Source: Phycisphaerae bacterium (GTDB lineage Bacteria > Planctomycetota > Phycisphaerae > UBA1845 > Fen-1342). From it: 64,000 bases of DNA. Of the stretch, positions 2,688 through 56,841 are shown in pieces. The translations under genes and the position numbers were made by a program. The first letter of the stretch is position 1, and each line of letters begins with the position of its first letter. Location of the stretch: the NCBI GenBank assembly GCA_028279405.1, contig JANQNU010000036.1:124001-188000 (forward strand), written 5' to 3'. The notes under the pieces were generated by a model that saw only the letters and a list, made by a program, of their open reading frames with translations, did not search any database and was not told the origin of the DNA.

Positions 2688-3569
2688 ATGATCGGGATCA
2701 TTGGTGGGACTGGGCTAGGCGAGGCGCTGCTGGGTGAGGCAACGGGCGGTGAGCACCGCGAGGTGGAGACGCCGTTCGGAAGACCGAGCGCGCCGATCCA
2801 GCTGGCGAACTGGCACGGGCTGGACATCGCGATTCTTGCGCGGCACGGGATCGGGCATCGGCTCAACCCGGCGCAAGTGCCGTATCGCGCCAACATCTAC
2901 GCGTTGAAACAGCTTGGCGTGACGCACATCCTGGCCAGTGGCGCCGTTGGTTCGCTTCGTGAGGAGCTACACCCGCGCGACATCGTGATCGTCGACCAGG
3001 TGATCGACAAGACGGTTCGTCGGACGCCGACGTTCTTCGATGATGACTTGGCGGTGCATGCTGAGTTCGCCGAGCCATACTGCCCCGCGTTGCGCGAAGT
3101 GCTCATTCGCGTGTCGGAGAAAATGGACTTCACGGTGCGCCCGAAGGGCACTTATGTGTGCATGGAGGGGCCCGCGTTCAGCACGGTGGCCGAGTCCCAC
3201 ATGCATCGCGGTTGGGGGGGCGATCTGATCGGCATGACCAGCATGCCCGAGGCCAAGCTTGCCCGCGAGGCAGAGATTGCATACGCCGCCGTCGCGCTGG
3301 TGACGGACTACGACTGCTGGAAGCCGCACGATCCGAACGTGCCGAAGCAGGCCCTTCTGGCCGAGATCATCGGGCATCTCAAGGCCGCGACGGCCAACGC
3401 CAATACGTTGATCCGGGCGGCGATCGAGCACTTCGCGTCCCATGACTTACCCCCGTCCGCGGCCCATCGGGCGCTCGATCTCGCGGTCTGGACAGCACGC
3501 GATCAGATCTCGCAGAAGACGCGCGACCGGTACGGCGTGCTGCTGGAGCGTTTCGTCGCCAGCCTCTAG
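2688..3569 (+). CDS. mtnP: S-methyl-5'-thioadenosine phosphorylase
   Basis: Splits methylthioadenosine with phosphate into adenine and methylthioribose-1-phosphate, the first step of methionine salvage. The ATG at 2688 has GAGGG a short distance upstream. The 293-residue protein has the purine phosphorylase family marks: the N-terminal phosphate loop GIIGGTGLGE, the middle segment ASGAVGSLREE, then CMEGPAFSTVAES and the substrate segment GMTSMPEA, followed by VTDYDCW whose Asp is expected to contact the adenine ring. The GMT and TDYD pair favours methylthioadenosine over guanosine or inosine. The last ~30 residues after the catalytic core are a helical tail. It lies 69 bases after lpdA on the same strand, but two hairpins intervene, so co-transcription is uncertain. 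Confidence 0.92.
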   Translation: MIGIIGGTGLGEALLGEATGGEHREVETPFGRPSAPIQLANWHGLDIAILARHGIGHRLNPAQVPYRANIYALKQLGVTHILASGAVGSLREELHPRDIVIVDQVIDKTVRRTPTFFDDDLAVHAEFAEPYCPALREVLIRVSEKMDFTVRPKGTYVCMEGPAFSTVAESHMHRGWGGDLIGMTSMPEAKLAREAEIAYAAVALVTDYDCWKPHDPNVPKQALLAEIIGHLKAATANANTLIRAAIEHFASHDLPPSAAHRALDLAVWTARDQISQKTRDRYGVLLERFVASL

Positions 3570-3929
3570 CCCCGCGGACCACATCACCACTTGCTGATAA
3601 TGGGCCCTCGCTCGTACCAGGTGCGCGCGCCACCGCGTGTTTGGGTTAGCGTCGTGCGCGCGGGCCCGATTCGCTGGTGCGCAGCGTTTGCGCAGCGGGT
3701 GCGGGCTGCTGACGGTGTGGTAGATGTTCCGTTCATTTGACTGCGGCATTTCTCTCAGCCGATTGGCGAGCGGGCCGATAGGAAATCACGAGGTCCTCCG
3801 TAACGACCCATCTTGCGAGGTGCGGTTTCGTCGTGGACGCGGCTCGTGTGCGCTCATGCGGGCGTGCCGTCGTCCGCTGCTGCCGCCAATGTCCGTGACT
3901 GGTATCTGGCCCCGAACTTGGAGTGCACG
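3570..3929. other. Intergenic region, no gene seen
   Basis: About 360 bases between mtnP and the acidic lipoprotein gene. A 69-codon open frame at 3724-3933 has no ribosome binding site and a composition like non-coding GC-rich DNA, so it is not called. Promoter elements for the lipoprotein gene are expected here, but no convincing -35/-10 pair was found. Confidence 0.5.
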
Positions 3930-5675
3930 ATGAAATTGTGGCTGCAACTGACCTTCGGAATGACCTTTCTGCTCGCGGCCTTGAGCCTGGGCGGGTGTCC
4001 GCCCACGACCGGCGGTTTCGGCGATGGGTTCGACGATGACATCGACATGAACGATGACATGAACGATGACGACTTCGATGACGAAGACGACGACGACATC
4101 GACGACGATGACATGGATGACTTCGGCGACGGGTTGGCGATCAGCGGGTCGGTAGGGGCAGAGCTGGCGGCGCGCCGTGCGACGCAACAAAATCTGGATG
4201 ACTCCGACGACGACACGCTCGATGATACAGTCGACGACACGCTCGATGATACTGAAGATCCCTTTGCGGGCGGCGACTTCGATCAGTTCCAGGTCGTTGC
4301 CCAGTCGGCCGACACGCTGAACGTCTACACCACGCTCACGGATGAGTTTGGTGAATTCGTTCTGGAGCTTCCGGAAGACGAAGAAGGCAGCCTGTTCATG
4401 ATCACGTTCCTCGGGTTCGACAGCCAGTCGCTGGGGACGGTGATCTTCGAGAACGACGGTGACATGGGCTTCACCGGTCTCGAGGTATTCGGAAACGTCG
4501 ACCTCGGTTCGCTCGACATTCCGTTGACGCCGGGCGCCGGTCCGGTCGTGCCGGGTGACGACGCCGACTTCACCGACGGTGAAATCGCGACGGACGTTTT
4601 CGCACGGTTGAACGAGGACGGTGCGCCGGTGGGTGCGGACAGCATCGGCAAGGGCGACGACTCGCAGACGGACGAGCCCAGCGACGATGAGCGGCAGCGC
4701 TGCGACGCTGACCGGGATGGTCTCATCGACCTGTTTGACGCCGACGACGATGGTAACGGGACGGTCGACGACTTCGACCCGAATCACACTGCGGTCGATC
4801 CGGCGATGGAAGACGGTGTGCGGCTCAACTTCTTCATGAATCTCAAAATCGGCGAGCAGGACGCTGCCATCTTCTTCCAGGGTGACGAGGACGGGATCGC
4901 TGACCTGCTGATGACCAAGACTGTGATCACTTTCGAGGTGCGTGCCGAAGAGAGCCTCACCAAGGAGATCACCGGCGTGCGCATCATCGGGCCGCCGGCA
5001 CCATCCGCCCCGTATCTGGAGACGGCCACCATCAACAACACGACGACCCTGTGGTCGGACGAGGGCTTTGAACTCGACATGGCTGGTGAGAATCACTTCC
5101 AGCAGTTCGTCGTCCCGAACGCCTTCATCAACGGTGGCGACACCTTCACTGCCGAGGTGACCTTCGACGACGGCACCACCGGCGTATACAACCGGATGAT
5201 CAACTACGTCTTCAAGAGTATTCCGAAGCTCGAGCAGTTCGGCTCGCCGGACGCCGTGACGCCGATCACCGGTCCGGACCCGATGCTTACCTTCGACGGG
5301 ACGAAGAGTCTGGTGCTCGAGTGGGCACCGCCGGTGGATGAGATGGGCAATCTGCTCGTCGACCTCGACTATCGGTTCGAGGTGTTCTTCTACGACGCCA
5401 ACAACATGCAGATCAACGGCATCGATGGCGAGGCCACCTGGCCGACGCCGCCGGCGAAGTGGGACGTCAACACCACCGCATTCAGCATCTCTGGACCCGA
5501 GTTGGCAACGCTCTCGGATGACAACACGCTGACCGTAGATCTTCCCCAGGAGATCTTCGTGGACACGGTCGAGACGACTGACGGTCCGGTCAATGTCAGT
5601 GCGTACAAGATCGACATCGCGTCGCAGAACAACGGCAATAACTCGGCGCTGATGCTCCAGTTCGAGAAGTTCTAG
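3930..5675 (+). CDS. Acidic, calcium-binding-like lipoprotein
   Basis: Putative exported lipoprotein of 581 aa. ATG 3930 is chosen because it starts a clean lipoprotein signal (MKLWLQLTF..., lipobox LGGC with Cys near residue 23); the frame is open further upstream but that part is not signal-like. Residues ~30-65 are almost all Asp, Glu, Asn and Met, followed by a second Asp-rich patch near residues 90-112. Around residues 254-280 there is a thrombospondin-type-3/EF-like calcium loop run (DADRDGLIDLFDADDDGNG). The rest appears to be beta-sandwich extracellular modules. No enzyme motif is seen. A strong terminator follows, so it is probably monocistronic. Calcium-dependent structure and surface location are inferences from composition. 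Confidence 0.75.
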   Translation: MKLWLQLTFGMTFLLAALSLGGCPPTTGGFGDGFDDDIDMNDDMNDDDFDDEDDDDIDDDDMDDFGDGLAISGSVGAELAARRATQQNLDDSDDDTLDDTVDDTLDDTEDPFAGGDFDQFQVVAQSADTLNVYTTLTDEFGEFVLELPEDEEGSLFMITFLGFDSQSLGTVIFENDGDMGFTGLEVFGNVDLGSLDIPLTPGAGPVVPGDDADFTDGEIATDVFARLNEDGAPVGADSIGKGDDSQTDEPSDDERQRCDADRDGLIDLFDADDDGNGTVDDFDPNHTAVDPAMEDGVRLNFFMNLKIGEQDAAIFFQGDEDGIADLLMTKTVITFEVRAEESLTKEITGVRIIGPPAPSAPYLETATINNTTTLWSDEGFELDMAGENHFQQFVVPNAFINGGDTFTAEVTFDDGTTGVYNRMINYVFKSIPKLEQFGSPDAVTPITGPDPMLTFDGTKSLVLEWAPPVDEMGNLLVDLDYRFEVFFYDANNMQINGIDGEATWPTPPAKWDVNTTAFSISGPELATLSDDNTLTVDLPQEIFVDTVETTDGPVNVSAYKIDIASQNNGNNSALMLQFEKF

Positions 5676-49069: not shown

Positions 49070-50917
49070 TTACGACGCGCGGCGACGACCGGCCGTCATC
49101 AGGCCTGCGAACGCGAACCCGAGCGTCGCCATTGCGGTCAACGGACAGATCGGCGTCGGAGGAATCGGCGGAAAGATCGGGCTGAGACCACTTGGCGCGA
49201 TCTTGAGCACGTATGACTCGGCCGGGCTGAATGCGAATCCACCAATCTGGAAGAACTCGGCATTCGGATCGTAGTTCGGATCGATGAACGGGTCGGAGAA
49301 AGAGTAGCCCGCGATGTACGCGTTCCCGTCGGCGTCGAGCGCCAGACCCTGGGCATCGTCGGAGCTGGCGCCGCCGAAACGAACCGAGTAGTCGATCCGT
49401 CGACCGTCGCTGGTGAAGGCCGTAAGGAAGCAGTCGGTGATGGTGGCGTTGAAGTAACGCTGCTTCGAGATCAGGTTGGGCGTTTCCGGGAACTCCTCGA
49501 ACGCAGAGGTCGAGCCGACGACCACGATGCGGCCGTCCGGGTCGAGTGCGATATCGTTGCCGAACTCGGTGCCGCGGCCACCGAGGTAGGTTGAGTAGAG
49601 CAGATTGGCGCCATTCGGACCGAGCTTGGACACGAACGCGTCGGCCGATGAGATGTCGCCGGACTGCCCGTCCGTGCCGGGAGTGTCCAGCGTGCGATCG
49701 ACGGCATCATTCGTCGTCGGGAAGAATGGCGAGAAGGTCGCGCCGACGACGTACGCGTTCCCGTCACGATCGACAGCGATGCCGGTGCCGAAATCGGTAC
49801 CGTAGACGTTCCCGTATCGCGGATCGGGTTCGCGCTCCTGGTCGCCGTCGCCGAGGTAGGTGGAGTAGACCAGCTCGGTGCCGTCGGAGTTGACCTTGGC
49901 GACGAACGCGTCGCCAATACGATCGCCGTCGGCTCCGGCCGGTCGATCTTCGAATGCGGCGGCGCGGTAGGCGCCTGGCGTCGTCGGGAAGTCGGGCGAG
50001 TTGGTTTGGCCCGTGACGTACGCGTTGCCGTTGGCATCGATCGCGACTGCGGTCGCATAATCGGGGAGCGTGCCGCCGATGTAGGACGAGTAAACAAACT
50101 CCGTGCCGTCGGCGTTGACCTTGCACACGAATCCTTCGGGGGCGCTCACGCCGCCGACTTGGCCTTCCATCGGTTCGGCTCCGAAGAATGGGTCGAACGC
50201 ATCTTCAGTGACGGGAAACAGTGGCGAGAGGGTCTCGCCGACGACGAACGCATTGCCGAACTGGTCGACGGCAACACCAAGGCAGGAGTCGGAAGCGGTC
50301 ACGGTTCCAAACTGCGGTTCTTCCGGATCTTCGAGGCGATTGGCGTCGCCGATGAACGTGGAGTAGACGACGCGACCGTTGGGGTCGAACTTGGTCAGGA
50401 ATCCTTCGCCGACGGCGGGCGAGCCGTTGTTGAAGGGTTCAGTCGACAGGGCGCCGGGGGTGGTCGGGAAGTCGATCGAGTGGGTCTGGCCGACGACGTA
50501 TGCGTTGCCGTTGCGGTCGACCGCGACATCCCAGCCGGATTCGTCGCTGGTGCCGCCGAGGTACGTCGAGTAGACCATGTCGCCGTTCCGATCGAACTTC
50601 GCGACGAAGGCGTCACGCGCCGTGACGGTACCGACCTGGCCATCCATCGGTTCCGGGCCGAGGTACCGGTCGAATGCGTTGCCGACGATCGGAAAGTCCG
50701 GCGTAACCGTATGACCGACGACCCAAATGTTGCCGTCGAGGTCGATTGCAACGGCTTGTGCGCGGGTCTCTTGCAAACCGCCGAACACGTCGAAGAAGTC
50801 GAGTTCCGGGGTGAAGTTCGCTGGCAAGACGTTGGGTTGCGCGAGCGCGCTGCCGCTCAAAGACGCGACGATTCCCCCAAGAACGGCTTTGACGAGAAAT
50901 GGGCGCACTGAGTCCAT
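49070..50917 (-). CDS. Secreted SBBP beta-propeller repeat protein with C-terminal anchor
   Basis: 615-aa exported protein. ATG 50917 follows GGAAGGAGA and opens a Sec leader (cut after ALA). The body is made of repeated ~65-residue units with the SBBP pattern, for example DAFVAKFDRNGDMVYSTYLGG, DVAVDRNGNAYVVGQT and DFPTTPGA; about eight units fill residues ~45-570 and should form a propeller. The tail has a Pro stretch, a hydrophobic segment (TAMATLGFAFAGLMTAG) and a final RRR, like PEP-CTERM-type sorting signals though without a clear PEP motif. Divergent from the first caspase-like peptidase gene, with 318 bases between. Confidence 0.84.
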   Translation of the reverse strand: MDSVRPFLVKAVLGGIVASLSGSALAQPNVLPANFTPELDFFDVFGGLQETRAQAVAIDLDGNIWVVGHTVTPDFPIVGNAFDRYLGPEPMDGQVGTVTARDAFVAKFDRNGDMVYSTYLGGTSDESGWDVAVDRNGNAYVVGQTHSIDFPTTPGALSTEPFNNGSPAVGEGFLTKFDPNGRVVYSTFIGDANRLEDPEEPQFGTVTASDSCLGVAVDQFGNAFVVGETLSPLFPVTEDAFDPFFGAEPMEGQVGGVSAPEGFVCKVNADGTEFVYSSYIGGTLPDYATAVAIDANGNAYVTGQTNSPDFPTTPGAYRAAAFEDRPAGADGDRIGDAFVAKVNSDGTELVYSTYLGDGDQEREPDPRYGNVYGTDFGTGIAVDRDGNAYVVGATFSPFFPTTNDAVDRTLDTPGTDGQSGDISSADAFVSKLGPNGANLLYSTYLGGRGTEFGNDIALDPDGRIVVVGSTSAFEEFPETPNLISKQRYFNATITDCFLTAFTSDGRRIDYSVRFGGASSDDAQGLALDADGNAYIAGYSFSDPFIDPNYDPNAEFFQIGGFAFSPAESYVLKIAPSGLSPIFPPIPPTPICPLTAMATLGFAFAGLMTAGRRRAS

Positions 50918-51129
50918 AGCGATCGAATCTCCTTCCCGGCCGAGTTGGCCGACGTGGCGAGCGGGAACCCTCCGGCTCACAAGCTGAGCAATCGCCGTGC
51001 CAGAACTGAATTCGCGATTCCAGCCCCTGGGCAACGATTTCGACAGGGCTTCTCCCGGGAGTTGGGTGGGGAATTTGCGGGAAATAGTGCGCAGGTTCGG
51101 GAGCGGTTTCGCTATAGTGGAGGTCGGAA

Positions 51130-51235
51130 AATCTTTGCCCCTTCTTTACCGTTTTGGACCAGCCGACCCGGCTGGCTCCGCGACTTCCGGGTGAAAGAGC
51201 GAGGTCTCCCAAGTCTCACCCAAAGGAGGTATTAC
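51130..51235 (+). promoter_or_regulatory. Conserved 5' leader of the first caspase-like gene
   Basis: Shares blocks with 54131-54249: AATCTTTGCC (51130-51139), GACCAGCC, CGACTTCC and GGGTGA (51189-51194) / TCACCC (51216-51221), ending at AAAGGAGGT (51222-51230). The GGGTGA/TCACCC arms can pair directly next to the Shine-Dalgarno. A further hairpin CCAGCCG/CGGCTGG (51159-51175) is found only in this copy. TATAGT (51113-51118) may be the -10 box. Confidence 0.6.
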
Positions 51236-53821
51236 ATGCTTCGACGTTATCTGGGCGCCATCGCGTGCGTTATCGGCGCCGCGCTACCCGTGCATGCGGG
51301 CATCGTTCTCGACCGGGCAACCGCCGTGGATGCAGTGATCGCCGAACTCGGGATCACGGATCCGATCGAACAAGCCGTTTGGTCATCGTATTCGGACCAC
51401 GGCTTCGGCGCGGGCTTCGAGGGCCTTTTCCCGGCTGGGACGACCATCCGGCCGGCCAAGGCTGACTCCGGCAACGAAGTCACCCTGGTTGCCCCTATGT
51501 ATGTGTTCATGGTGGACGACGATCCACGGGCAGCGTTCGAGCATGACGTCCGATTCGTCTACGTCGACGCGACCGCTGCGACGCCCAACGTCGTCGATGG
51601 CACGATCGTCGCTCAGGACCAGAGTTGGTGGCCGGTGGTCACGCTCCCGGGCGGGAAGACGGAAGAGGAGATCTACGGGCCCTATAACGGGACCAGCAAC
51701 GAGCCGGCCGGCGCGTCGAATCCGGACGGTTTCGTCTTCGGCCACCTCGAGCTCGGCGACGGCCTGCTGGCGCTGCCGGCATCCGTTGGACTCGGCGGCG
51801 GCGGGCCGGCGGCGCAGAATCCATGCGGCCTGATCATCACCGGGGTCGACCCCAACTCCAATCGCGCCAATGACAAGGCCTTTGACGGCAGTGCGGATGC
51901 CATGAAGCAGCAGCTTCGCAACGACGGCGTGCCCGCCAATCGGATCCAGGACAAGCGACACGCCAAGCAGTCGGATATCACCGCGGCAATCACGGCGTTG
52001 TGCAATCTCAACCCGCCATGCGACAAGATCTACGCCTACATCGGCGCCCATGGTTACGCCGCCCAGGGAACCACGGAGGGTGGCATCGAGCTGAACGATG
52101 GCAGCGGAAACATCGAGAACGTCCCCGAATCCAAGATCTGCGAATTGTTGAAGCCACTCGGCGACAAGAACGTCCCGGTCTGCATGTTCATCGAGAGCTG
52201 CCACGGCGGTGAGTTCGTGGACACGCTGCGTCCGAAATTCAAGCAGGGCATCATCATCACCGGCGCCGACGCCAACAACAAAACCTGGATGGACAACGTG
52301 ACTGGCGCTGGCCACATCGGTTTTTACATGTGGGCGTTTCTGCGCTGCCTGAACTCGACGGATCCAGCCGCCGACCTCGATGGTGACGGCAATGTCAACT
52401 GGGCAGAGGCCTTCAAGTGGGTTTGTGTCGGAGACAACGGCAAGGTTCCCTGGGGCGGGCGCCAGTGGGACGTGAAGACAAAGAACCCGGTTCTTTCGGG
52501 TCTACCGACCACTTATAAGAACTGGACCGCACCCGGCTCGGGGCGCAAGTACACCGAGTGCTTCTACGACACGGACAATGACGGTGCTTACGATCGCCAC
52601 GACTGGGGTGTGGACCTCGATTGTGACGGTAACCTCGATTACCTCTACCTCGAAGATGACAAGGACGAGGACGGCAAGCCCGAACGTAAGGTGTGCTTCT
52701 ACGACGATGATGACGACGGCGACTTCGATCGTCGCGTCGAGTTCTCGGACACCGACGACGACGGCACCTGGGACGGGATCGAGCTTTGTTTTAACAACAA
52801 CGGCAACTGGGAGCCGATCGCGTTCGCGCCGCGGCGCTCGGTCAACCGGATGTCGGTGCAGCCCAATGCCGGTCCGCGCGACGGCGGCGTCCCGGTCGAG
52901 ATCATCGGCAACGGCATCAACTGGAATCCGGACACGGAACTGTGCGTGATCCTTGGTTCGAACGTCGAGTTCTACAAGCCGCTCGGCCCCAATCAGCTCT
53001 TTGCGCAGACCCAGGGGTACTGGGAAGGTCCGCAGGACGTGATCATCATCGACTTCAACCCGGACAGCCCGTCTCACGGCTTCGACCAGCTGCAGAACGG
53101 CTACTTCTATCAGCCCGAGTTGCGCATCGACTTCGTCGATCCGGCGCATCTGCCTTGCGAGTTGGACTCGCTGCTGCATGTCTTCGGTCACCAGTTCAAC
53201 CCCAACACGCAGGTCTTCATCGAAGGCCAGCCGCTCCCGACCACGTTCATCACGCCTGGTGAACTGCACGTCGACGTTCCCGGCGGTCTCTTCTGCGATC
53301 AACTCGTCGGTGTTGAAGTGCTCAACCCGGATGGTTCGAACATGTTCGCACCGGAGTCGTTGCTGTTCGGTCCGCCGCTGGACCTGCTGCCGCCGCAGAT
53401 CCTGTGCCCGGATCCGCTGCAGCTGACCGCCGGTCCTACCGGTTGGGTTCCCTTGCCGCCGTTCTATACGGCTGATGGCCAGGACCTGTCCGGACCGGTC
53501 CTAATCACGCGCAACACGCTTGGCGCTCTATCTGTCGGTCAAACGCAGATTGAGTTCGAGGCCCGCGATGCGTCCGGCAACACGACGACGTGCACGTCGA
53601 TCGTTCGCGTCCAGCCCGGCGGTGGCTTGCTCGGCGACATGAACTGCGACGGCGTCGTCAGCGTGAGCGACATCAACGCGTTCGTTCTGGCGTTGACCGA
53701 TCCGGCGGCGTACCAGGCGCAGTTCCCGGATTGCGACATCCAGAACGGTGACATGAACGGTGACGGTGTTGTTTCCGTCGGCGACATCAACGGCTTCGTC
53801 TCGGCCGTGACCGGCGGCTAA
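51236..53821 (+). CDS. Secreted caspase-like cysteine peptidase with EF-like, IPT/TIG, HYR and dockerin-like domains (copy 1)
   Basis: 861-aa exported protein, ATG 51236 with a near-perfect AAAGGAGGT 5 bases upstream. Sec leader MLRRYLGAIACVIGAALPVHA. About residues 22-190 look like a propeptide. Residues ~200-380 have a caspase/legumain-type (clan CD) fold with His272 in YIGAHGYAAQ and Cys322 in FIESCHGGEF, an intact dyad. Residues ~445-520 are Asp-rich calcium loops (DTDNDGAYD, DDDDDGDFDRR). Two IPT/TIG-like domains and an HYR-like domain follow, then a dockerin-like tail ([30 protein letters not shown]). The neighbour at 54250 is a close paralogue. Substrate and trigger are unknown; calcium activation is a guess. 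Confidence 0.83.
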   Translation: MLRRYLGAIACVIGAALPVHAGIVLDRATAVDAVIAELGITDPIEQAVWSSYSDHGFGAGFEGLFPAGTTIRPAKADSGNEVTLVAPMYVFMVDDDPRAAFEHDVRFVYVDATAATPNVVDGTIVAQDQSWWPVVTLPGGKTEEEIYGPYNGTSNEPAGASNPDGFVFGHLELGDGLLALPASVGLGGGGPAAQNPCGLIITGVDPNSNRANDKAFDGSADAMKQQLRNDGVPANRIQDKRHAKQSDITAAITALCNLNPPCDKIYAYIGAHGYAAQGTTEGGIELNDGSGNIENVPESKICELLKPLGDKNVPVCMFIESCHGGEFVDTLRPKFKQGIIITGADANNKTWMDNVTGAGHIGFYMWAFLRCLNSTDPAADLDGDGNVNWAEAFKWVCVGDNGKVPWGGRQWDVKTKNPVLSGLPTTYKNWTAPGSGRKYTECFYDTDNDGAYDRHDWGVDLDCDGNLDYLYLEDDKDEDGKPERKVCFYDDDDDGDFDRRVEFSDTDDDGTWDGIELCFNNNGNWEPIAFAPRRSVNRMSVQPNAGPRDGGVPVEIIGNGINWNPDTELCVILGSNVEFYKPLGPNQLFAQTQGYWEGPQDVIIIDFNPDSPSHGFDQLQNGYFYQPELRIDFVDPAHLPCELDSLLHVFGHQFNPNTQVFIEGQPLPTTFITPGELHVDVPGGLFCDQLVGVEVLNPDGSNMFAPESLLFGPPLDLLPPQILCPDPLQLTAGPTGWVPLPPFYTADGQDLSGPVLITRNTLGALSVGQTQIEFEARDASGNTTTCTSIVRVQPGGGLLGDMNCDGVVSVSDINAFVLALTDPAAYQAQFPDCDIQNGDMNGDGVVSVGDINGFVSAVTGG

Positions 53822-53862
53822 CAAGCCGTCTGGTGGTTGACTGACAATTCTGCCCTCCAAAC

Positions 53863-53900
53863 CAGTGGCACAGGCCTAGCGCCTGTGTCGCTGTTTTTTT
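53863..53900 (+). terminator. Rho-independent terminator after the first caspase-like gene
   Basis: A 13-bp stem (53863-53875 with 53881-53893, two G-T pairs) with a 5-base loop is followed by seven Ts. Its core is the GGCACAGGC member of the dispersed GGCA...TGCC palindrome family. Confidence 0.85.
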
Positions 53901-53980
53901 CGACACGCGCTCCGGCGCGCTCACTCAACCGGTCGCAATATCCACCAACCCAGAGTGGGGCGGGTGTTTCACCCGCCGTT

Positions 53981-54056
53981 GACCGCTCGCTCGTGCTCGC
54001 GGCTCGCACTGGCGCCCGCTAGCCTCGCAACGAGCCCCGAGCGCAAGCGAGGGGGC
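53981..54056. repeat. GC-rich imperfect inverted repeat
   Basis: Left arm 53981-54006 (opening GACCGCTCGCTCGTGCTCGC) and right arm 54031-54056 with several mismatches, spacer 24 bases. Same element as 48832-48907, which is almost perfect; the spacer length is identical. Confidence 0.65.
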
Positions 54057-54130
54057 AGCAACGGCGGGCGAACGCCGCCAGCCACCGTAGCGCCGTTTTG
54101 CCGCGGAGAGCATCCTCCCCGGCGACAAAA

Positions 54131-54249
54131 AATCTTTGCCTCTCCGTGATCGCTTTTGAACCAGCCGGCGTAACTATGCGGACGACTTCCAGGGTGAACG
54201 AACGAGTGTCTTTAACGTGTCTCTCAATCTCACCCATAGGAGGTGTCCA
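54131..54249 (+). promoter_or_regulatory. Conserved 5' leader of the second caspase-like gene
   Basis: Shares with 51130-51235 the blocks AATCTTTGCC (54131-54140), ACCAGCC, CGACTTCC and GGGTGA (54192-54197) / TCACCC (54230-54235), followed by AGGAGGT (54238-54244). The hairpin loop is 32 bases here and 21 in copy 1, while the arms are unchanged. Confidence 0.6.
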
Positions 54250-56841
54250 ATGCTTCGACGTTTCTTGGGCTCGATCGCATGCGTCATGGGGGCGGCACTG
54301 CCCGCCTACGCCGGCGTAGTGCTAGATCGCGCGACGGCGGTCGATGCGGTGATCAACGAACTCGGGATTACGGATCCAATCGAACAGGCGGTCTGGTCCT
54401 CATACGCGGATCATGGCTTCGGGCCCGGCTTCGAGGGCCTGTATCCAGCGGATACAACCGTACGACCAGCCAAGGCCGATTCGGGTAACGAGGTCACTTT
54501 GATCGCGCCGATGTACGTGTTCATGGTCGACGACGAGCCGCGGGCGCTGTTCGAGCACGACGTCCGGTTCGTCTACGTCGATGCCACAGCCGCGACGCCC
54601 AATCTCGTTGACGGGACGATCATCGTACAAGACCAGAGCTGGTGGCCGGTGGTCACGCCTCCGGGTGGACCGGAAGAAGAGATCTTCGGTCCGCTCAACG
54701 GTAGCAGCGATGAGCCGGCGGGAGCGGACAACCCGGACGGGTTCGTCTTCGGGCACCTTGAACTGGGCGACGGTCAACTCGAGCTTCTCGCATCCGCAGG
54801 GCTCGGCGCCGGCGGAGCGGCTCCGCAAAACCCCTGCGGCATGATCATCACCGGCGTTCCGACGAATCCCGCCCGTGCCGCTGACAAAGGATTGAACGGG
54901 AGCGCTGACGCATTCAAGCAGCAGCTTCGCAATGACGGCGTGCCGGCGAACCGTATTCAGGAGAAACGCCACGCTACGCAGGCGGACATCACTGCCGCGA
55001 TCACGGCGCTGTGTAACCTCGATCCACCGTGTGACAAGATCTTCGCCTACATCGGCGCCCACGGCTACGCTGCGCAAGGCACGACTGAAGGTGGAATCGA
55101 GCTGAACGATGGCAGCGGTGGCATCGAAAACACCTCCGAGTCGAAGCTCTGTGAACTGCTCAAACCACTCGGCAACAAGAACGTTCCAGTCTGCATGTTC
55201 ATCGAGAGTTGCCACGGCGGCCAATTGACCGACACGCTGCGCCCGAAATTCAAAGGAGGCGTCATCATTACCGTCGCTGACGCCAACAACAAAGGTTGGG
55301 CGGACAACGTGACCGGTTCCGGATTCATCGGATTCTACATGTGGGCATTTCTGCGCTGCCTGAACTCGACCGACCCGGCTGCCGACCTCGACGGCAACGG
55401 CGATGTCGACTGGGCCGAAGCCTTCAAATGGGTCTGTGTCGGGGACAACGGCAAGGTGCCGTGGGGCGGACGCCAGTGGGACGTCAAAACCAAGAATCCC
55501 GACCTCGCCGGTCTACCGACCACCTACAAGAGCTGGACGGGGCCGGTTAGCGGTCGCAAATATACCGAGTGTTTCTACGACACGGACAGTGACGGTGCCT
55601 ACGATCGGCACGACTGGGGCGCGGATATCGATTGCGACGGCAACCTCGATTTCCTCTACCTCGAAGATGATAAGGACGAGGACGGCAAGCCAGAGCGCAA
55701 GGTGTGTTTCTACGACGACGACGATGACGGCGACTTCGATCGGCGCGTCGAATTCACTGACGGCAACGATGACGGTATCTGGGACAACATCGAGATCTCG
55801 CGCAACCAGAACGGCGAATGGATCGCGTTCGTGTCGGCGCCGCGGCGCTCGGTGAATCAGATGGCCGTGTTCCCGCCCAACGGTCCGCGCGACGGCGGCG
55901 TGGCGGTCGAGATCACTGGGAAGTCGATCAACTGGAACCCCTCGAGCGAACTGTGCGTGATCATCGGTTCGACCGTCGAGTTCTACGAGCAGTTCGGCCC
56001 GAACGTGCTGTTCGCGATGCCGCAAGGTTATTGGGAAGGTCAGCAGGATGTTGTCGTCATCAGCATCGGAGCTGGTCCGGACGCCGGTATCGGGTTCTTC
56101 GACGTTCTGCAGGCCGGGTACACGTATGAGCCCGCACTACGGGTCACCGAGGTCGACCCGGCGCACCTGCCTTGCCTGACAAAGGACGACCAGGTGCGAG
56201 TTCTCGGATCGCTCTTCACCGTCTCGACCGAAGTCCTGTTCAATGGGCTTCCGATGTCGAGCACCTTTCTCTCGAGCGAAGAGCTGCTGGTCGATGTTCC
56301 GGCCGGTATGTTCTGCGACGAGGTCGTTAGCGTCGAGGTGCGCAATCCGGACGGGGCAAACATGCTTGCCCCCGACGCGCTGATCTTCGACGGGCCGCTC
56401 GACCTGCAGCCGCCGACGATCGTCTGCCCCGATCCGCTCACCCTGGTTGCGGGCCCGAACGGCTGGGTTCCGCTGCCGCCGTTCCATACCGCTGACGGCC
56501 AGGATGATCTTGGGCCGGCGTTGATCACGCGAAACACGCTTGGAGCGCTCGCGGTCGGTGAGACCGAGATCCACTTCGAGGCGCGCGACGCGTCCGGGAA
56601 CACGACGCAGTGCTCGGCGCCGGTCAACGTCCAGCCCGGCGGCGGCTTGCTCGGCGACATGAATTGCGACGGCGTCGTCAGTGTGAGCGACATCAACGCG
56701 TTCGTTCTGGCACTGACTGACCCGGCGGCGTACCAGGCGCAGTTCCCAGATTGCGACATCCAGAACGGTGACATGAACGGCGACGGCACCGTTTCCGTCG
56801 GCGATATCAATGGCTTCGTCGCGGCGGTGACCGGAGGCTGA
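54250..56841 (+). CDS. Secreted caspase-like cysteine peptidase, tandem paralogue (copy 2)
   Basis: 863-aa exported protein with the same domain order as the 51236 gene and most residues shared. Sec leader MLRRFLGSIACVMGAALPAYA; AGGAGGT 5 bases upstream of ATG 54250. His271 in YIGAHGYAAQ and Cys321 in FIESCHGGQL are intact. Asp-rich calcium loops (DTDSDGAYD, DDDDDGDFDRR), IPT/TIG-like and HYR-like domains and the dockerin-like tail ([15 protein letters not shown]) follow. Differences gather in the IPT/TIG part and in the loops after the catalytic Cys (GQLTDTL against GEFVDTL), which suggests changed binding rather than lost activity. An inverted repeat follows, but its T-tract is broken. Confidence 0.83.
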   Translation: MLRRFLGSIACVMGAALPAYAGVVLDRATAVDAVINELGITDPIEQAVWSSYADHGFGPGFEGLYPADTTVRPAKADSGNEVTLIAPMYVFMVDDEPRALFEHDVRFVYVDATAATPNLVDGTIIVQDQSWWPVVTPPGGPEEEIFGPLNGSSDEPAGADNPDGFVFGHLELGDGQLELLASAGLGAGGAAPQNPCGMIITGVPTNPARAADKGLNGSADAFKQQLRNDGVPANRIQEKRHATQADITAAITALCNLDPPCDKIFAYIGAHGYAAQGTTEGGIELNDGSGGIENTSESKLCELLKPLGNKNVPVCMFIESCHGGQLTDTLRPKFKGGVIITVADANNKGWADNVTGSGFIGFYMWAFLRCLNSTDPAADLDGNGDVDWAEAFKWVCVGDNGKVPWGGRQWDVKTKNPDLAGLPTTYKSWTGPVSGRKYTECFYDTDSDGAYDRHDWGADIDCDGNLDFLYLEDDKDEDGKPERKVCFYDDDDDGDFDRRVEFTDGNDDGIWDNIEISRNQNGEWIAFVSAPRRSVNQMAVFPPNGPRDGGVAVEITGKSINWNPSSELCVIIGSTVEFYEQFGPNVLFAMPQGYWEGQQDVVVISIGAGPDAGIGFFDVLQAGYTYEPALRVTEVDPAHLPCLTKDDQVRVLGSLFTVSTEVLFNGLPMSSTFLSSEELLVDVPAGMFCDEVVSVEVRNPDGANMLAPDALIFDGPLDLQPPTIVCPDPLTLVAGPNGWVPLPPFHTADGQDDLGPALITRNTLGALAVGETEIHFEARDASGNTTQCSAPVNVQPGGGLLGDMNCDGVVSVSDINAFVLALTDPAAYQAQFPDCDIQNGDMNGDGTVSVGDINGFVAAVTGG

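Follow-up and report, generated by a model that had tools for sequence, protein, structure and literature searches.

Two adjacent genes of a Phycisphaerae bacterium, here named A and B, probably encode exported cysteine peptidases of clan CD that are paralogues of each other, belong to a divergent bacterial and archaeal branch resembling family C13 (legumain) and are made as pre-pro-enzymes. They lie in a stretch of 64,000 nucleotides of contig JANQNU010000036.1 (the window, on which all their coordinates are given). Judged by their sequences, they are divergent members of a widespread and little-studied two-domain family of bacteria and archaea. Caspase-fold enzymes are mostly discussed for intracellular cell death. 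This family would place the fold outside the cell, and in many phyla, and its front domain may be a built-in inhibitor.

The gene pair and its modules

Genes A (51236..53821, 861 aa) and B (54250..56841, 863 aa) are tandem open reading frames on the plus strand, as are all features of the pair described below, and their products are 78% identical. The sequence AGGAGG, a ribosome binding site, precedes the ATG start of both (51224..51229 for A and 54238..54243 for B). By eye, residues 1-22 of A (51236..51301) form a signal peptide and the N-terminus of B is also typical of one, from which we infer that both proteins are exported. In each protein, about 165 residues make up the N-terminal domain. 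The catalytic region follows, then five DxDxDG loops, one IPT/TIG and one HYR domain, and finally a tail of two repeats. The initial annotation had described two adjacent genes of about 860 residues with the dyads His272/Cys322 and His271/Cys321, and both the coordinates and the residues were confirmed. The divergent neighbour (49070-51034, minus strand) encodes an exported SBBP beta-propeller protein (Pfam SBBP, 167 bits).

The N-terminal domain, marked by the motif DDxPxAxxxHxxR and putatively an inhibitory propeptide, spans 51341..51682 in A and 54349..54660 in B (family profile A7, E 2e-16 and 5e-15, respectively), and the catalytic domain spans 51815..52510 in A, where it has the caspase/legumain fold and ends with the EF-hand-like loop of the family, and 54829..55518 in B (family profile A8); A and B are themselves members of both profiles. 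From the sequence and the family alignment, the catalytic His272 and Cys322 of A are encoded at 52049..52051 and 52199..52201, and the His271 and Cys321 of B at 55060..55062 and 55210..55212. The EF-hand-like loop of A (DLDGDGNVNWAE, 52373..52408) is kept in much of the family, and the five Asp-rich DxDxDG repeats that follow it (52568..52780) were not seen in the relatives L111 and L148. Counting both, Asp-rich loops start at residues 380, 445, 460, 475, 490 and 505 of A, and the initial annotation had noted such loops in the pair. The adhesive domains were also correctly annotated, since the IPT/TIG domain (PF01833; best stretch at 53126..53332 in A, 56143..56352 in B) and the HYR domain (PF02494; 53381..53611 in A, 56401..56631 in B) are above the Pfam cut-offs.

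The C-terminal tails (53624..53818 in A and 56644..56838 in B) each contain two DxNxDG repeats and score 14.9 (A) and 15.8 (B) bits with Pfam Dockerin_1, under the cut-off of 22.9. The dockerin-like module of the initial annotation hence retains its two loops and falls short of the family by score. That the two proteins share the same tail is real, but it is not specific to the pair: this module of 65 residues (GDMNCDGxVSVxDINxFVLALTDPxxY...VTGG) occurs in about 150 places of the genome (e.g., L003-L020; 150 of 184 candidates were scored), and in all of the 17 cases inspected it was found at the stop codon or at most nine residues from it. It is a general C-terminal module of this organism, probably for sorting or anchoring. 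A cellulosome was ruled out, because the best match to cohesin (PF00963) in the genome had 16.2 bits, under the cut-off of 24.1.

A stem-loop followed by a T run, resembling a terminator, lies between the genes (53863..53893), and the leaders of 119 bp upstream of A and of B are about 70% alike, so the two genes may be transcribed separately. The base composition of the region is that of its surroundings. The duplication seems old given the Ks between A and B of about 1.2-1.6 in the N-terminal and catalytic domains, values above 1 that rule out a recent event. The corresponding Ka/Ks of 0.05 and 0.09 indicate strong purifying selection and, together with the intact dyads, agree with the earlier view that both catalytic sites are preserved. 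Change was faster in the IPT/TIG part (Ka/Ks of 0.25-0.47). The least constrained window of the core comprises Cys322 and the next loops (Ka/Ks of 0.17, versus 0.02-0.05 on either side). In the tail, Ks is as low as 0.40, which fits gene conversion or a shared constraint on this module. Both genes appear to be kept by selection, the changes being mostly in the adhesion modules and partly next to the active site, a pattern that fits divided roles. Binding modules and loops do differ between the copies, as first annotated. The split specificity proposed at that time is weakly suggested by the window around Cys322 and by the adhesive modules, which stop short of divided specificity itself. The pair is a natural case in which to test how duplicated genes diverge. 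The locus L112, from a Paludibacteraceae genome, carries the two-domain ORF twice in less than 5 kb, at 2-811 and at 3144-5027 on the minus strand, and local duplication is thus not unique to this window.

The catalytic domain and its relatives

Neither A nor B passed the cut-off of any peptidase family in Pfam, NCBIfam or PHROGs, and the searches of PHROGs and Rfam returned nothing. A fragment of B matched Pfam C13 (PF01650; E 0.065, 13.2 bits) under the cut-off of 22.8, with no match for A, and the PADLOC profile 'caspase' matched B (E 0.011). The AlphaFold model of the catalytic region, built from the two sequences of A and B, had a mean pLDDT of 59, with values of 70-89 across most of the first 120 residues. 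Its elements follow the order beta3-His85, three short strands, alpha3, beta4-Cys135. This is the order of the clan CD topology, in which a small piece of three strands likewise separates beta3 from alpha3 (PMC4357240), and in this model of moderate confidence the His ends beta3 and the Cys ends beta4 of the core, on adjacent strands. Foldseek produced 52 matches in the PDB with E<=0.001, and 49 of the best 50 were caspases, a metacaspase or a SAVED-CHAT filament; viral matches were headed by metacaspase-like proteins. The TM-scores were below 0.5, which makes the assignment firm in the kind of fold, not in its detail.

The profile-profile alignment with 30 C14 domains from the same phylum (98% probability, E 2.5e-14) brought both residues of the dyad into register and included the post-catalytic acidic loop. 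When searched against the PDB, the A8 profile retrieved metacaspase-4 (7.4e-19) and legumain (1.4e-15) with the dyad aligned, and also other asparaginyl endopeptidases and the GPI-anchor transamidase. Only three columns are invariant in the alignment of 18 catalytic domains, i.e., the His (H85), the adjacent Gly (G86) and the Cys (C135), and all 18 members thus have the Gly that is conserved beside the catalytic His in clan CD. The profile and invariance evidence derives largely from the family, and the A8 profile includes A and B themselves; hence, their independent links to the clan are the pairwise matches, the C14 profile alignment and the fold. A clan CD fold with an intact dyad is supported for both proteins. 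The clan CD type had been suggested from the sequence, and the model with its Foldseek matches, the A8 profile and the invariant residues all agree with it: two of the checks proposed at that stage, structure prediction and a clan CD profile search, respectively gave a caspase fold and retrieved metacaspases and legumains.

Roughly 1000 genomes, drawn from the family, the order, the class and the phylum, gave no relative from outside the genome of A and B when these two alone served as queries. Nothing close was found in 60 relatives and 392 genomes of the phylum, the 397 genomes of the class had weak matches only, on the acidic loop, and marginal matches in 114 genomes of the order were rejected on inspection. 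Large collections of genome contigs and viral contigs returned nothing (nor did the viral contigs with a four-row query), and plasmids and phages had no relative, the single plasmid match being a chance one inside a modular synthase. The reading of A and B as orphans was overturned by the N-terminal domain. A search for C13 in the phylum led to L097, whose N-terminal domain shares a short motif with A and B, and a scan with this motif (DD[DEQ]PxAx[FW]xHxxR[FY]) identified 56 loci, among which 42 have an ORF with both the N-terminal and the catalytic domain. These two-domain loci span Bacteroidota, Verrucomicrobiota, Acidobacteriota, Pseudomonadota, Chloroflexota, Actinomycetota, Planctomycetota and other phyla, as well as two kinds of archaea. 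In Planctomycetota the N-domain family is rare (4 other genomes of 376).

Two relatives from Verrucomicrobia align with A over almost 400 residues, covering both domains (L111, 32% identity, E 3.6e-39; L148, 29% identity, E 1.8e-37). The former passes the Pfam C13 cut-off (25.1 bits), as do most other relatives, and the annotation of at least one relative reads 'C13 family peptidase'. A and B fit the two-domain family that we define here by the N-domain motif and a C13-like catalytic domain in one ORF. Many members of the family have an EF-hand-like loop (consensus ADxNGDGxVxxxEA) behind the catalytic domain, and relatives from other phyla have the same core with other tails or modules (GEVED, DUF11, TPR, BACON, HYR-like). 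The core travels between lineages and the end modules are local. In two loci, L127 (4473-4997 and 1722-4469, minus strand) and L170 (1456-1959 and 764-1540), the N-terminal and catalytic domains are encoded in adjacent separate ORFs, which may reflect split genes, a natural separation or a sequencing error.

It is unlikely that A and B belong to family C14, i.e., that they are bacterial metacaspases or orthocaspases rather than part of a C13-like branch. Pfam assigns 15 of the 18 aligned catalytic domains to C13 and three to C14, and its C14 profile (PF00656) has no match in the entire genome, A and B included. The strong alignment with the planctomycete C14 domains, in which both the dyad and the acidic loop are in register, does argue for C14, but with its 30 sequences this profile has more depth than the C13 set, which has five, and this is a bias towards C14. 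The best Foldseek matches, which are C14 and CHAT structures, and the PADLOC match of B point in the same direction, as does a quick tree in which some Pfam-C13 sequences are further from the A/B clade than C14 is (support 0.93); yet this tree has low deep support and lacks eukaryotic legumain. We class A and B as clan CD enzymes that are C13-like, going by the Pfam matches of the family, and as proven members of neither C13 nor C14. They could also be inactive pseudo-peptidases working as adhesins or surface scaffolds, given that adhesive modules and tail make up half of each protein and that planctomycete caspase homologues are often devoid of the dyad (64% intact, PMC3501461). We regard this as very improbable, because His, Gly and Cys are the sole residues kept across 18 diverse relatives and both copies have retained them, at a Ka/Ks of about 0.09, over an old duplication.

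The N-terminal domain

The N-terminal domain has the invariant residues D, D, P, A, H, R and P. We found no Pfam family and no solved relative for it, and its structure model is of poor reliability. A kinship with PepSY has no support other than one sub-threshold match (L163, 16.8 versus 24 bits). A stand-alone N-domain ORF of 121-214 aa accompanies the protease ORF in 16 of the 42 loci that have a two-domain ORF, at a distance of about 200 bases or less and always in the same orientation, either upstream (12 loci: L110, L115, L124, L131, L138, L142, L149, L150, L158, L161, L163, L164) or downstream (four loci: L126, L130, L154, L155). Several of these ORFs have lipoprotein-like starts, and none has a Pfam or NCBIfam annotation. 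The protease SpeB and its adjacent inhibitor Spi, a propeptide analogue, have the same gene arrangement (PMC2873492), and gingipain is a clan CD enzyme with an N-terminal inhibitory prodomain (PMC4357240). By analogy with these two cases, and given the stand-alone copies, we read the N-terminal domain of A and B as a putative inhibitory propeptide. The apparent propeptide of the initial annotation is thereby supported indirectly, through the relatives; there is no stand-alone N-domain gene beside A and B.

More generally, and tentatively, it is quite possible that the DDxPxAxxxHxxR domain is a new and widespread inhibitory propeptide fold that acts in cis and in trans beside C13-like peptidases in both bacteria and archaea, as an analogue of SpeB-Spi in clan CD. 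Alternatively, it might bind a substrate or a partner, in which case the stand-alone copies would be separate binding proteins. This is possible, if rather doubtful: members of profile A7 match no Pfam propeptide family, the single PepSY match being below the cut-off, and some of the two-domain proteases and their neighbours have no obvious signal peptide, but adjacent genes on the same strand that share the N-terminal domain of the protease are what is seen in SpeB/Spi. If the propeptide reading is true, a protease with its inhibitor in cis and in trans would be a ready system in which to study how secreted clan CD enzymes are silenced.

Proposed function and comparison with known systems

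We propose that A and B would be exported by Sec and that their N-terminal domain would then fold beside the catalytic domain and restrain it until removed or displaced, as the relatives suggest. The dyad (His272/Cys322 in A) would cut peptide bonds, an activity that is putative and follows from a computed fold and dyad. The residue two positions before the Cys is acidic (E-S-C), which is also the case in metacaspases and legumain; from this we guess, weakly, that cleavage is most likely to follow Arg/Lys or Asn, and not Asp. The EF-hand-like and DxDxDG loops may bind calcium and stiffen the extracellular enzyme, the IPT/TIG and HYR modules may hold it to a surface or substrate, and the tail would be the common C-terminal module of the exported proteins of this genome. 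Both copies seem to be under selection and to differ mainly in the adhesive modules and in the loops after the catalytic Cys. Their likely job would be extracellular protein processing or scavenging.

The initial annotation took this make-up to stand alone. This was not upheld: the two-domain core is present in many phyla, with a relative already annotated as a C13 peptidase, and extracellular clan CD enzymes are known, e.g., C11, C13 and C25 in sediment archaea (PMC6461988) and gingipain (PMC4357240). Extracellular metacaspases have also been discussed (PMC3501461). Hence, the novelty lies in the set of domains and in the N-terminal module, not in an extracellular enzyme of caspase fold.

Among known systems, SpeB-Spi (C10 protease) resembles many of the relatives in having a stand-alone N-domain gene adjoining the protease. 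It differs in the arrangement, which is absent at A and B, and in the unrelated fold of the protease, which in SpeB is of the papain type. Gingipain R (C25) and clostripain (C11) are, like A and B, secreted bacterial clan CD enzymes, but no sequence relation to A and B was detected and their prodomain is different. Gingipain has bound calcium besides its N-terminal inhibitory prodomain (PMC4357240). The metacaspases and orthocaspases of C14 are similar to A and B in fold, dyad, D/E-x-C motif, post-catalytic acidic loop and profile alignment, whereas A and B are found in a genome that has no Pfam C14 match, are predicted to be exported, and are multi-modular with a DDxP N-terminal domain. Family C13 (legumain, GPI-anchor transamidase; PF01650) shares the clan CD fold and the HG...C dyad with the A/B family, whose profile finds legumain in the PDB and whose members pass the C13 cut-off in the relatives. 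A and B themselves are under this cut-off, they have the N-terminal DDxP domain instead of the C-terminal prodomain of legumain, and they add the EF-hand-like loop and the IPT/TIG, HYR and dockerin-like modules.
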